NCBI GenBank assembly: GCA_028700425.1 | Contig: JAQVSP010000004.1 | Coordinates: 1 to 47,932 of the forward strand | Direction: 5' to 3' | Origin: Sphaerochaetaceae bacterium | GTDB taxonomy: Bacteria > Spirochaetota > Spirochaetia > Sphaerochaetales > Sphaerochaetaceae | Length of the DNA stretch: 47,932 nt | In this document: positions 1,800-5,800 of the stretch, one piece after another | Layout: every line of letters starts with the position of its first letter | Numbering within the stretch: the first letter of the stretch is position 1 | Notes under the pieces: generated by a model | What the model saw: only the letters and a program-made list of their open reading frames with translations | Told to the model about the DNA's origin: nothing | Databases searched by the model: none | Translations under genes and position numbers: made by a program

Positions 1800-2549
1800 A
1801 TGATGAATAAAAGGGTTATTGCACTAATCACCGTCCTCTGCTTGGCGGCATCAAGCCTGGTGGCTTTTCAATTCTCTCCGCTGGAGCAGACATTTTCCAC
1901 TTCAGGAGCAGAAAGCACAAAGAGCTATACCATAGTAAATGATTCAAACGACAGCATTGCAATAGTCATCACAGCTCTGACAAGAGACCAGGATGGGGAT
2001 GGCAACGAGCTCAACGAGAGCGCTTCAAGCTATTTCTCGATTGTGCCTGCAAAGGTCATTGTCAAGCCTCAGAGCACACAGATCGTCAGAGTCCAGTACA
2101 AGGGCCCCAAGACGGTGACCACAGAGCTCTCCTTCAGGATCCGCGCTGAGCAGACCACCTATTCGCAAGGCCGCCAGCAGACCGAAGGAAGCATGTTCAA
2201 CTTCCTTTACATCTACACTACAAGCGCATATGTAAGTCCGTCTGCAATTGTTGAGAGAGTCGGCATAAGATCCATAACGCCAGCCTTGGATGAAGAGGGA
2301 AACAAGATAATGAAGATTGCCGTCGCAAATGCAGGCAATATTCACCAGATACTCACGGGAGCAGAGATTACCATCACAGACAGCGCCAACAACAGGGTGA
2401 TTCTTTCCGGAACAGAGCAGATCGGCCGAATCAGCGGCCTCAACCTGCTTGCCAAGAAAACAGTGACAGTCTCAGTCCCTTGGCCGGAAGGCTTGCCTTA
2501 TCCTGAAGGGCAGGGCAGCTTCAAGGCGACTATTGACTACAGCAAATAG
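1800..2549 (+). CDS. PapD-like periplasmic pilus/surface-fibre chaperone
   Basis: 249 aa with a signal peptide (basic MMNKR, hydrophobic core, cleavage near LVAF). Residues about 22-140 resemble the first immunoglobulin-like domain of chaperones of the chaperone/usher pathway: a KSYTIVNDS strand, VKPQSTQIVRVQY (the usual beta strand before the F1-G1 region) and ELSFRIRAEQ. The second half (about 150-249) is beta-rich like chaperone domain 2. Such proteins cap subunits in the periplasm and hand them to an outer-membrane usher, and the next gene is usher-like. The start is one of two adjacent ATGs (1800 or 1803). Neither has a good Shine-Dalgarno: AAGGAG at 1769-1774 is too far away. A rho-independent hairpin follows the gene. 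No pilin is visible nearby. Confidence 0.75.
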   Translation: MMNKRVIALITVLCLAASSLVAFQFSPLEQTFSTSGAESTKSYTIVNDSNDSIAIVITALTRDQDGDGNELNESASSYFSIVPAKVIVKPQSTQIVRVQYKGPKTVTTELSFRIRAEQTTYSQGRQQTEGSMFNFLYIYTTSAYVSPSAIVERVGIRSITPALDEEGNKIMKIAVANAGNIHQILTGAEITITDSANNRVILSGTEQIGRISGLNLLAKKTVTVSVPWPEGLPYPEGQGSFKATIDYSK

Positions 2550-2571
2550 GAAGCAAGCGATTGATCAAGTA

Positions 2572-2597
2572 CCCCCGTCCCGAAAGAGCGGGGGTTT
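2572..2597 (+). terminator. Hairpin between chaperone and usher genes
   Basis: CCCCCG (2572-2577) pairs with CGGGGG (2589-2594), followed by TTT. It starts 23 bp after the chaperone stop and ends 18 bp before the usher ATG. It is likely a terminator or attenuator that lowers usher expression relative to the chaperone. TATAAA (2600-2605) right after it could be a -10 for a separate usher transcript. Confidence 0.65.
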
Positions 2598-2614
2598 CGT
2601 ATAAAATAGGATCT

Positions 2615-5600
2615 ATGAAGAGAAAGTCAGAACCAACGTCAGAAGTCAAGAAAGCAGAAAGGGGAGATAATGATAGAAATCACCGTTTCTGGCTTCTTCT
2701 CCTGCTTTTTCTGCTAGGCCTTTTCTCTTCGTGCCTTCTGATATTCGATCTCTTCTATCATTTTAGGCCCCGAATCGTGCTAGAGGCTGTGCCAAGGACA
2801 AGCGAGGTTGCATCAAGGCCCGCAGAGACTCCGATAATAATGAGCACAGATGACACCTTCCTTGAGATAGGCGTTATTGAAGAGGATGAGACACCTGAAG
2901 AAGAGCCTGCTGTCATCAAGGAAGCTGAGATTGTCTTCCCAGCCATAGAGATCAAGCAGGAGATCCAGGAGCCTGAGCAAGAGCCAGAGCCAGAGCCGGA
3001 ACAGAGCGTTGATGAGGTTGTCCTTGAGAGCGTTGGAGGAGTCCCTGAGGCCCCGGTTTTCTTCGAGCCCTACGTAAGTGAGCTTTCAGAAAATGACATC
3101 TGGGCAGACTTTGAGACAACCAGCGACGACTTCTGGGACGACTTTGTATTCAGCGACGAAGCTCCAGCCTACTTTGAGGGCATAAACTACGTTCCGATCT
3201 ATATCAATGGCGAGTACTTCTCAAATATCGAGACCAACATCACCCAGGGCTCAGCAGCTGTCTCTAGATCTGAGCTTTCAAGCCTTCTTTACGGACTATT
3301 GACTGAGCAGTACTATGATGTGTTCTTTGAAAGCCCAGAGGAGTACTACTCAATAGACTACATGACAGAGAAGGAAGCCCAGGCAAGCTTTGAGATTGAT
3401 AGGCTTGAAATCTACCTTGACTTCAATGCAGACCAGTTCCCTGTCAAGGAAATCTCTGTCTCCTCAGCAATAGCCATGAACAGCATGCGTGACAGCCTGA
3501 CCTTTGAAGGAGCCAAGGACCTGGAGCCTGCTGACTTTGCCGCAGCCACCAACCTTTCCCTATTCGGCACCATAACCTTCAACAGGGATCTTCAGCTTAC
3601 CAGCAACAGCCTTGGACTGTCTGCAGTGACTTATCTCAGCTTCTTTGAAAGCGGAGCCGACTTGTCCTACTCGCTAAGCAAGACAGGGCTGAGCATCAAC
3701 AGCTTCAGAGCCTACTACGACTTCGCCGATGAGAACGTCCGCCTGACATTCGGCCATATAGGGACTGCAAGCTCAATATTCAGCGGCAATGCCTTCGGGC
3801 TCTCGCTTGAGAGAAGCTACTCCTATGGAACCGGCTCGGCGCTTGCAAGCCAGTATTCGCAAAGCATTGTCGTTGAACAGGCAAGCATTGTCGAGGTATT
3901 CATCAATGACGTCTCATGCCTGAAGCGCAGCCTAAAGGTAGGCAACTATCAGCTCAAGGATTTTGCATTCGTGCAAGGCGCAAACAACATAAAGGTTGTC
4001 ATAACACCGCTGACTGGCGGTGAGCCTTCAACCTACAGCTTCTTCACAGGATTCGACAACTCCTTGCTGGCCAAGGGCGAGCATTTCTGGAAGCTGAGCG
4101 CAGCCGTCCCAGAATCCACTGTCGATTCAGCAAGCTTGTCACAGAATGGGGACTTCAGGCTTCCCTGGATAGGCGGAGAGGACCTTCTTTTCAAGCTGTC
4201 CGACTTATCCCTGGGATTTGAGCACAGGATCGGAATCGCCGACGCTGTAACGATCTCAGACCTAATCAATGCATCCCTGACACTTTCCAGCGATGGCATT
4301 AGCCATGACTCCTCAATTCAGGGAAACTTCGGCCTTGTATGGGCAAACAAGCTTGGAACCACAAGTGTCAGCTTCAACTCCACCCTTACAAGCCGTTACC
4401 TGCCCGCAGGCTCCGTCACCAGCACCCAGTTCTCGATGTATCTTGCCCAGTCCTTCAATGCTGAAGTCCTTAGGCCCTTGAGCTTCAACTTTAGCTACAA
4501 CAGCGCATCAACTGAGACCCTGGGCACAAGAATCTCAAGCAGCATCCTCTCAACAAACATAGGCTACAGCTTCCCGATCCAGCAAGCTCTTCGGGCTGGG
4601 CTCTCTGCAAGCCTTTCATACTCCCTGTTCACCGGTGACCTGCTCTGGTCAGCATCAGGCAGCATCGGCGGAACCTTCCTTGCTGGGCTTTCTCTTTCAG
4701 CCAACCTTTCCCTGTCCAACTCCACAGGCCGGGTCACGCCTTCGCTGAGCATTGGAGGAAGCTATGTTGTAGGGCCTAAGACCAGCGTGTCAGCATCCAC
4801 AGCAATCGGAAGCACCAGCGCCATAGGAATATCCCAGAAGATTGATAATGATGGCAAGCACAGCCTGCAGCTTAACATCGGCCAGATAGACTTTGCTGAC
4901 ATTCTCAACCACACCTTGAACTTGAACTACAGCTACAATGGATCTCTGCTTGGAGGCTCGCTGCGCTTTGGATCGGCTGCAAAGTACTCATCATTCACGC
5001 TGGGACTTTCTGCCAACACAGCCCTGGCCTATGCTGATGGAGCCTTTGGCATGGCCAAGAGCATTTCCAGCAACTTTTTGCTGGTGAAGCCTCAAGGCAT
5101 ACTCAAGAGTTCCGACATAAGCGTTGCAAGGGCCACCGACTCAACCGGCAAGCCCATGCCCAAGCTCTTCAGCACAGTTGTCTACACAGGCCTTTCAGCT
5201 TATTCTCGAAACAGCGTGGTGGTCTATGGAACCACAGACTCCTTGTTCGGCTCTGGCGGCCTTTTCCTGTTCAACCTTAATCCCAAGGCAAGGCAGGGCT
5301 ATGTGGCCGAGATAGCCATGACACCTTCCGTAACAGTAAGCGGAGTGCTCATGCACGCCGATGGAACTGTCTACGACCAGTATTCAAGCCCTATCTACCA
5401 GCTGCAATTCAGCTCGGATGGAAAGACTGTGACTTACCTTGACATGAGCGCAGGCTACTACCTCTTCACTGACCAGGACGGCCGCTATATTGTAAGCGAC
5501 CTGCCCTCCGGCACCTATTGCTTCGACCTTCAGGTTGAAGGAGGCTGGTATGGAGTGTGCTTCGTGGTTCCTGAGCTTGAGCAGGCCTCGGTTGTCGTGG

Positions 5601-5800
5601 AGCTTGAGACCTACACAGTCGATCCATACCAGTTCACAGTCGAGCCCAAGGGAATTCCTGCCTTAAGCGACTACCAGGCTACTGTTATGCTGAGCGAGAA
5701 GGGCAGAGTAGATGAGACTACCTTCTGGGACAGCCTGTTCACTCTCGAGGAGGGGACAGTGGCTGTTGAGAGCGAAGAGGAGTTCGTGTTCCTGGAGTAG
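2615..5800 (+). CDS. Usher-like outer-membrane protein with N-terminal membrane anchor
   Basis: 1061 aa from the ATG at 2615, chosen over an earlier in-frame start at 2561 because the earlier start would place coding sequence through the terminator hairpin. Order of parts: basic cytoplasmic tail (1-24); one long hydrophobic helix (25-47, longer than a normal signal peptide and without an AxA site); acidic Glu/Pro-rich spacer (about 85-135); a region like the usher N-terminal domain (about 188-280: VPIYINGEY, SRSELSSLL); then a long Ser/Asn/Leu-rich alternating region expected to be a beta barrel. This region carries an inserted plug-like stretch (VEVFINDVSCLKRSLKVGNYQLKDF). The end (about 935-1025) resembles the usher C-terminal domain (DQDGRYIVSDLPSGTYCF). 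Ushers form outer-membrane pores that assemble and export fibre subunits. The membrane helix plus Glu/Pro spacer is not a normal usher feature. SSC in the helix could be a relaxed spirochaetal lipobox instead. The 3' end overlaps the convergent MATE gene by 62 bp. Confidence 0.7.
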   Translation: MKRKSEPTSEVKKAERGDNDRNHRFWLLLLLFLLGLFSSCLLIFDLFYHFRPRIVLEAVPRTSEVASRPAETPIIMSTDDTFLEIGVIEEDETPEEEPAVIKEAEIVFPAIEIKQEIQEPEQEPEPEPEQSVDEVVLESVGGVPEAPVFFEPYVSELSENDIWADFETTSDDFWDDFVFSDEAPAYFEGINYVPIYINGEYFSNIETNITQGSAAVSRSELSSLLYGLLTEQYYDVFFESPEEYYSIDYMTEKEAQASFEIDRLEIYLDFNADQFPVKEISVSSAIAMNSMRDSLTFEGAKDLEPADFAAATNLSLFGTITFNRDLQLTSNSLGLSAVTYLSFFESGADLSYSLSKTGLSINSFRAYYDFADENVRLTFGHIGTASSIFSGNAFGLSLERSYSYGTGSALASQYSQSIVVEQASIVEVFINDVSCLKRSLKVGNYQLKDFAFVQGANNIKVVITPLTGGEPSTYSFFTGFDNSLLAKGEHFWKLSAAVPESTVDSASLSQNGDFRLPWIGGEDLLFKLSDLSLGFEHRIGIADAVTISDLINASLTLSSDGISHDSSIQGNFGLVWANKLGTTSVSFNSTLTSRYLPAGSVTSTQFSMYLAQSFNAEVLRPLSFNFSYNSASTETLGTRISSSILSTNIGYSFPIQQALRAGLSASLSYSLFTGDLLWSASGSIGGTFLAGLSLSANLSLSNSTGRVTPSLSIGGSYVVGPKTSVSASTAIGSTSAIGISQKIDNDGKHSLQLNIGQIDFADILNHTLNLNYSYNGSLLGGSLRFGSAAKYSSFTLGLSANTALAYADGAFGMAKSISSNFLLVKPQGILKSSDISVARATDSTGKPMPKLFSTVVYTGLSAYSRNSVVVYGTTDSLFGSGGLFLFNLNPKARQGYVAEIAMTPSVTVSGVLMHADGTVYDQYSSPIYQLQFSSDGKTVTYLDMSAGYYLFTDQDGRYIVSDLPSGTYCFDLQVEGGWYGVCFVVPELEQASVVVELETYTVDPYQFTVEPKGIPALSDYQATVMLSEKGRVDETTFWDSLFTLEEGTVAVESEEEFVFLE

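Follow-up and report, generated by a model that had tools for sequence, protein, structure and literature searches.

We report a chaperone-usher pair from a Sphaerochaetaceae bacterium that is probably a non-classical fiber-assembly machine, in which the usher appears to be one polypeptide bridging both membranes. The window, meaning the whole stretch of 47,932 nucleotides that was analyzed (NCBI GenBank assembly GCA_028700425.1, contig JAQVSP010000004.1, here contig C43), belongs to a 2.1-Mb, 210-contig, 94%-complete metagenome-assembled genome (MAG). An earlier note made from this sequence had proposed a PapD-like chaperone followed by a 1061-amino-acid usher in a probable spirochete; AlphaFold2 models and fold matches in the PDB confirm both folds, and the relatives found with the chaperone carry the names Sphaerochaeta, Sphaerochaetaceae or Spirochaetales. 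With moderate confidence we also favor a more specific reading, namely that a single polypeptide joins an inner-membrane protein of 1 to 7 helices to an outer-membrane 24-strand pore through a periplasm-spanning disordered tether, and that this permanent trans-envelope fiber-assembly station evolved once in the Sphaerochaetaceae from an ordinary signal-peptide usher. An anchored usher is described nowhere in the open-licence subset of the literature that was searched, and no paper there combines 'chaperone-usher' and 'Sphaerochaeta'. The two genes of the pair are as follows.

1800..2549, forward strand: chaperone gene (249-amino-acid open reading frame), predicted to encode a periplasmic pilus chaperone of the non-classical (CsuC/CfaA/EcpB) type with two immunoglobulin-like (Ig-like) domains and a signal peptide predicted to end between SLVA and FQFSP
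2615..5800, forward strand: usher gene (1061-amino-acid open reading frame)

Fold and identity of the pair

The chaperone model (predicted local distance difference test, pLDDT, 87) consists of two Ig domains. CfaA, CsuC and EcpB make up its top 11 PDB fold matches, and classical chaperones rank after them. Residues P83 and R113 are invariant across 36 homologs and pair with EcpB Pro60 and Arg89 in a HMMER alignment to 5dfk, given an inferred offset of 15 in the chain numbering of that entry. The residues characteristic of these proteins are a superfamily proline (CsuC Pro59, EcpB Pro60) and a non-classical arginine (Arg89) (PMC4654587). Because of the fold matches and these hallmark residues, the modeled chaperone is assigned to the non-classical kind (Csu/CFA/ECP). 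In its second domain N177, G179 and H182 are invariant, and comparison at the level of sequence gave no obvious equivalents of CsuC Tyr196/Arg174. The match to PapD_N is borderline, with 22.4 bits against a Pfam cut-off of 23 and 23.5 bits, over the cut-off, in the genome search; the chaperone of a relative from another Spirochaetia family (L085) reaches 40.6 bits.

Zero Pfam or NCBIfam usher models match the window usher, including PF00577, PapC_N and PapC_C, and PDB sequence searches with the single protein and then with its 38-row profile gave zero matches. Its AlphaFold2 model, built on 38 sequences, has a mean pLDDT of 77 (mostly 80-95 in the folded part), and every one of the 18 best PDB matches found by Foldseek is to FimD or PapC (lowest E 8.8e-31 across 896 columns), at a sequence identity of ~14%. 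The earlier note had held that lack of a usher profile match would refute the assignment; no profile matches, yet the fold is that of an usher, and such a rule would have misfired. The sequence is too diverged for Pfam, so the assignment is carried by the fold and by the outgroup evidence, and on the models we regard the identity of the pair, with 2615-5800 encoding an outer-membrane usher, as close to certain. The usher of the relative L085 gives weak matches to PF00577 (E 0.016) and TcfC (E 0.051). A further usher match, in G021 (E 9.9e-4), was rejected as a 968-amino-acid protein with a peptidase-like N-terminal part.

The model runs from a helix (residues 13-48) through disorder (48-185) to the N-domain, 6 strands, a six-strand insert, ~18 strands and two C-terminal beta domains. 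This arrangement, together with the FimD and PapC matches, bears out the usher-like N-domain, barrel, plug and C-terminal domain proposed before, and equals the five-domain usher layout described in PMC8410936. A 24-strand-type barrel with a plug had been set as a test of the assignment; the model shows ~24 strands with the plug after strand 6, a number that is a DSSP count of strands. A sub-threshold match to CarboxypepD_reg covers residues 917-969. The folded parts are listed here.

Residues ~189-302 (nt 3179..3520, forward strand): usher N-terminal (recruitment) domain, from the model (strands 189-281) and within the Foldseek alignment to FimD
Residues 308-807 (nt 3536..5035, forward strand): beta-barrel, by DSSP 6 strands (308-400), an insert and ~18 strands (490-807)
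Residues 416-480 (nt 3860-4054, forward strand): plug, after the sixth barrel strand, a six-strand insert in the model
Residues ~810-1033 (nt 5042..5713, forward strand): two C-terminal beta-sandwich domains, from the model (beta-domains 821-1033)

Predicted anchor, spacer and docking motif

Ahead of these domains lies the segment that sets this usher apart. The 24-residue tail, the membrane helix (hydrophobic stretch 25-50) and the Glu/Pro-rich spacer to about residue 170 are as first described, with helix calls based on hydropathy and AlphaFold2.

Residues 1-24 (nt 2615..2686, forward strand): predicted cytoplasmic tail, with 8 K/R and 5 D/E
Residues 25-50 (nt 2687..2764, forward strand): predicted membrane helix (FWLLLLLFLLGLFSSCLLIFDLFYHF), hydropathy 2.66, helix 13-48 in the model, signal-peptidase-type site absent
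Residues 51-170 (nt 2765..3124, forward strand): predicted disordered Glu/Pro-rich periplasmic spacer, pLDDT below 50
Residues 171-178 (nt 3125..3148, forward strand): DDFWDDFV motif, probable chaperone-docking tail, from an alignment of 77 ushers

All 36 Sphaerochaetaceae ushers that were aligned begin with a short basic tail, also seen in every single-helix homolog, and continue with a membrane segment and then a spacer, which is 118-342 residues long (median 158; P 15%, D/E 22%, K/R 4%). The distance from the membrane segment to the N-domain is 145 amino acids in the window usher and 118-342 among homologs. An extended chain covers ~0.31-0.36 nm per residue; by arithmetic 118 residues would reach ~37-42 nm and the window's 145 residues ~45-52 nm, which is long enough for crossing a periplasm. 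A signal-peptidase-like site at the end of the hydrophobic core occurs in 32 of 33 chaperones, 26 of 29 unanchored outgroup ushers and 11 of 33 anchored ushers, and is missing from the window usher; the rule for this site was fitted to the chaperones, a stricter AxA rule passing just 23 of 36 chaperones. From these sequences, it is likely that the usher is anchored in the membrane via an uncleaved helix. The proposal that it might tie the outer-membrane pore to the inner membrane is supported by the sequences: anchor and spacer are conserved in all Sphaerochaetaceae homologs examined and absent in related ushers, while the two-membrane state of the mature protein is what we infer from them.

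At the end of the spacer, a conserved DDFWADF-type motif aligns, among the 77 ushers, with xDLFAEIFG, the sequence at which the mature protein begins in many unanchored relatives. The PapC N-domain has an essential N-terminal tail, containing Phe residues, that grips the chaperone (PMC8410936). The alignment suggests that the tether was added ahead of a complete ancestral mature usher, straight onto its docking tail. About two-thirds of the single-helix anchored ushers (L061-L072, L077, L081-L083, L092-L108) also have a Cys where the helix meets the periplasm, often as TCF, with no lipobox.

Distribution and origin of the anchor

The usher was found in 26 of 37 Sphaerochaetaceae genomes, with the chaperone adjoining wherever both were on a fetched contig, so that the same pair, which the earlier note had suggested looking for, recurs in the family. 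Across the class, one query found members of the usher family in 66 of the 297 Spirochaetia genomes searched; most of the genomes compared are MAGs. As an outgroup we used 30 ushers from 13 other Spirochaetia families (28 fetched loci together with L079 and L085), which are mostly ~780-900 amino acids long and have signal-peptide-like N-termini with the N-domain 0-36 residues behind. Two exceptions, L171 and L172, are unanchored proteins of ~955 amino acids in which an additional folded domain (~150 amino acids) stands between the signal peptide and the docking tail. In a tree of the usher core from which the anchor columns had been removed, all 47 anchored rows fall on one side of a single branch (support 100 by the SH-like approximate likelihood ratio test, SH-aLRT), which indicates from the aligned cores that the anchor was gained once. 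This was a quick tree with long branches among the outgroups, and its anchored and unanchored labels were read by eye from the N-termini, automatic labels having been misled by hydrophobic patches in spacers.

The anchor is not always a single helix. Multi-helix versions occur in genus g16 and in the second usher copy of G011 (L200-L227, L074-L076), where a dynamic-programming hydropathy count gave 3, 5 or 7 helices in 26 of the 30 ushers. Three of the four exceptions owe the extra segment to a hydrophobic patch within the spacer, and discounting these by eye leaves 29 of 30 odd, with L207, seemingly 2, as the sole true even count; the rows are mutually related and do not represent 30 independent trials. 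Odd helix numbers imply that the tail stays cytoplasmic and the spacer periplasmic. Four classes of predicted helix number (1, 3, 5 and 7) that share this topology would be hard to square with a cleaved signal peptide and point rather to a real membrane domain.

Candidate subunits

In the window the pair has no pilin gene beside it, as had been noted before. Candidate subunits were found elsewhere in the genome, where the earlier note had advised looking, starting from a 203-amino-acid secreted protein encoded just upstream of the pair in another genome (G007). There are four such pilin-like proteins, on other contigs.

C164:3480-4079, reverse strand: pilin-like protein of 199 amino acids, a relative found with the G007 sequence
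C12:3208-3717, forward strand: pilin-like protein found with the C164 protein, cut by the contig end
C37:3105-3371, reverse strand: pilin-like fragment found with the C164 protein, cut by the contig start and lacking its own start
C37:2485-3018, reverse strand: pilin-like protein recognised beside the preceding fragment

All four have C-terminal strands of the GxYxxxV type, and three have a visible signal peptide followed by an alternating strand such as INLTATVTY; the remaining one is the C37 fragment without a start. Relatives are scattered across the Sphaerochaetaceae, with many copies in G017. The pilin profile matches 18 of 26 usher-bearing family genomes versus 1 of 11 usher-less ones (Fisher P 0.001, uncorrected for kinship and genome reduction); without the query genomes P is 0.008, and by genus the counts are 13 of 15 versus 1 of 7 (P 0.002). 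The end motifs and this co-occurrence suggest that the pilin-like proteins may pair with the window chaperone. At the multi-helix loci L074-L076, at least four small secreted beta-rich proteins are encoded directly after the pair. Some weak profile matches, those in L133, L139 and L140 among them, were rejected as plainly other proteins.

The subunits of archaic systems carry the SCPU domain. A protein with this domain adjoins the pair in the two unanchored outgroups L079 and L085 (E 6.9e-12 and 6.1e-10), and subunits of this type were found neither beside the window pair nor elsewhere in its genome. Directly upstream of the unanchored pair of G058 lies a 167-amino-acid secreted protein without a Pfam match (L079:7905-8408), possibly its main pilin. 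In G017 (L150-L160), which has many pilin-like genes, at least eight contigs start or stop within copies that are nearly identical (with ends like NMSWSGNEELPAGDYVSNVKIEYTIK); it looks as though the assembly was disrupted by a subunit family that has many copies and possibly recombines. Two Sphaerochaeta-like genomes have a cluster encoding outer-membrane-receptor-like, ExbB-like, ExbD and TonB-like proteins with a pilin-like gene directly downstream (L240:7692-12330, L241:2082-6700), and the L241 cluster has two ExbD-like open reading frames.

Proposed mechanism and alternative explanations

In the mechanism that we propose, secreted subunits encoded elsewhere in the genome would leave Sec and be capped by the chaperone, and a docking tail tied to both the inner membrane and the pore would capture the chaperone-subunit complexes. 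The usher would join the subunits via donor-strand exchange, as in other systems, and export the fiber through its plugged barrel. In the Sphaerochaetaceae the ancestral signal peptide would have been replaced by an uncleaved anchor of 1, 3, 5 or 7 helices and a disordered spacer of 118-342 residues, giving one polypeptide that starts in the cytoplasm, crosses the inner membrane and the periplasm, and reaches into the outer membrane. The benefit may be that the tether keeps docking tail and pore near the Sec exit and raises the local capture of chaperone-subunit complexes; it might also link the inner and outer membranes where assembly takes place, as a lasting bridge. Some points weigh against this mechanism. 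The alanine in 11 of the 33 anchored ushers could serve as a cleavage site, the own-genome pilin-like proteins have zero Pfam family matches, and a two-membrane usher must pass the beta-barrel assembly machinery (BAM) with the anchor still holding it, which is without precedent among ushers as far as we know.

An unusual but cleaved signal peptide would leave an ordinary outer-membrane usher with a long acidic disordered periplasmic tail before its N-domain. We consider this unlikely, even though the segment is N-terminal and, like signal peptides, basic and then hydrophobic, with the possible alanine site nearby in a third of homologs. That site is absent from the window usher and from the other two-thirds, yet is nearly universal in the chaperones of the same genomes; one signal peptide cannot explain ushers with 3, 5 or 7 helices; and the spacer jumps from 0-36 to at least 118 amino acids with almost nothing between, as expected of a spacer that must cross the periplasm. 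More doubtful still is a repurposed pair, whose usher fold now exports cargo other than donor-strand fibers: most genomes have no subunit gene beside the pair, and the missing Pfam matches would suit such a change, but subunit-like proteins ending in GxYxxxV exist and occur together with the usher, the pair in L074-L076 has secreted beta-rich proteins encoded after it, and docking tail, plug and C-domains are all retained.

Two other anchoring schemes were rejected as highly improbable. In one, the usher is a lipoprotein whose spacer is held by a lipidated Cys at the helix end, as the frequent cysteine there might suggest; the window Cys sits mid-helix with hydrophobic residues behind it, L060, L063, L078, L088 and L105-L107 have no Cys at that place, and the scheme fell on the lipobox, as the residues before the Cys (RTC, KTC, HTC, SDC, PQC) form none and the hydrophobic stretch is overlong. 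The other, to which we give the least credence, takes up the TonB-like architecture noticed earlier and has the anchor couple the usher to ExbB/ExbD, with proton-motive force driving secretion or plug opening. The layout is indeed alike (cytoplasmic tail, one helix, Pro/Glu-rich spacer), but the usher's own genome yielded no match to the partner ExbD (PF02472), and neither did 12 of the 18 usher-bearing genomes of the family that were searched, gaps in MAGs being possible; this scheme was rejected on that ground. Among the homolog N-termini, moreover, no helix residue was noticed as conserved like the Ser/His of TonB, and multi-helix versions exist. Chaperone-usher assembly requires no energy source of the proton-motive-force type (PMC8410936).

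Genomic setting

The pair is flanked by a two-component system with a tRNA-Pro gene and by an opposite-strand gene for a MATE-like transporter. A V-type ATPase-like operon lies directly downstream of the pair in many Sphaerochaetaceae (L061, L064-L066, L068, L070-L072, L077, L081-L083 and others), and the window pair has no such neighbors. A terminator-like hairpin between the two genes (2578-2593) was set aside, such sites being no commoner than in shuffled sequences.

Comparison with known systems

Textbook ushers are outer-membrane machines with the recruitment domain free in the periplasm, whereas here the docking tail appears to be tied to the inner membrane family-wide. The window usher shares with the classical FimD and PapC, its best fold matches, the predicted N-domain, the 24-strand-type barrel, the plug after strand 6 and the two C-domains; FimD and PapC differ in that their signal peptides are ordinary and their N-terminal domain is free, with neither membrane helix nor spacer. 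If the two-membrane reading is true, the usher would belong to the rare proteins that are embedded in both membranes, and the question would arise how BAM inserts a barrel while an inner-membrane anchor still holds it. Such an usher would also allow a natural test of whether pilus assembly is limited by the delivery of subunits.

The archaic (Csu) and alternative (CFA/I, ECP) systems resemble the present one in chaperone fold and in the diagnostic Arg and Pro, and the unanchored usher relatives adjoin SCPU-domain subunits. The Sphaerochaetaceae systems differ in that their subunits are scattered and without Pfam match, and their usher is anchored. The host list of archaic systems in PMC4654587 has no spirochetes, and the present results place non-classical chaperone-usher systems widely in the Spirochaetia, outside the distribution given there.

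An extra N-terminal module on an usher is also a feature of CupB3, in which a POTRA-type domain is fused to an outer-membrane protein that has a cleaved signal peptide and no inner-membrane anchor. This P-usher of Pseudomonas aeruginosa is named in the reference list of PMC4793230. TonB is alike in its short cytoplasmic tail, single membrane helix, long Pro/charged periplasmic spacer and contact with an outer-membrane pore, but TonB and the pore are separate proteins, and TonB ends in a C-terminal domain of its own and depends on ExbB/ExbD; the resemblance is architectural, one of shape only.

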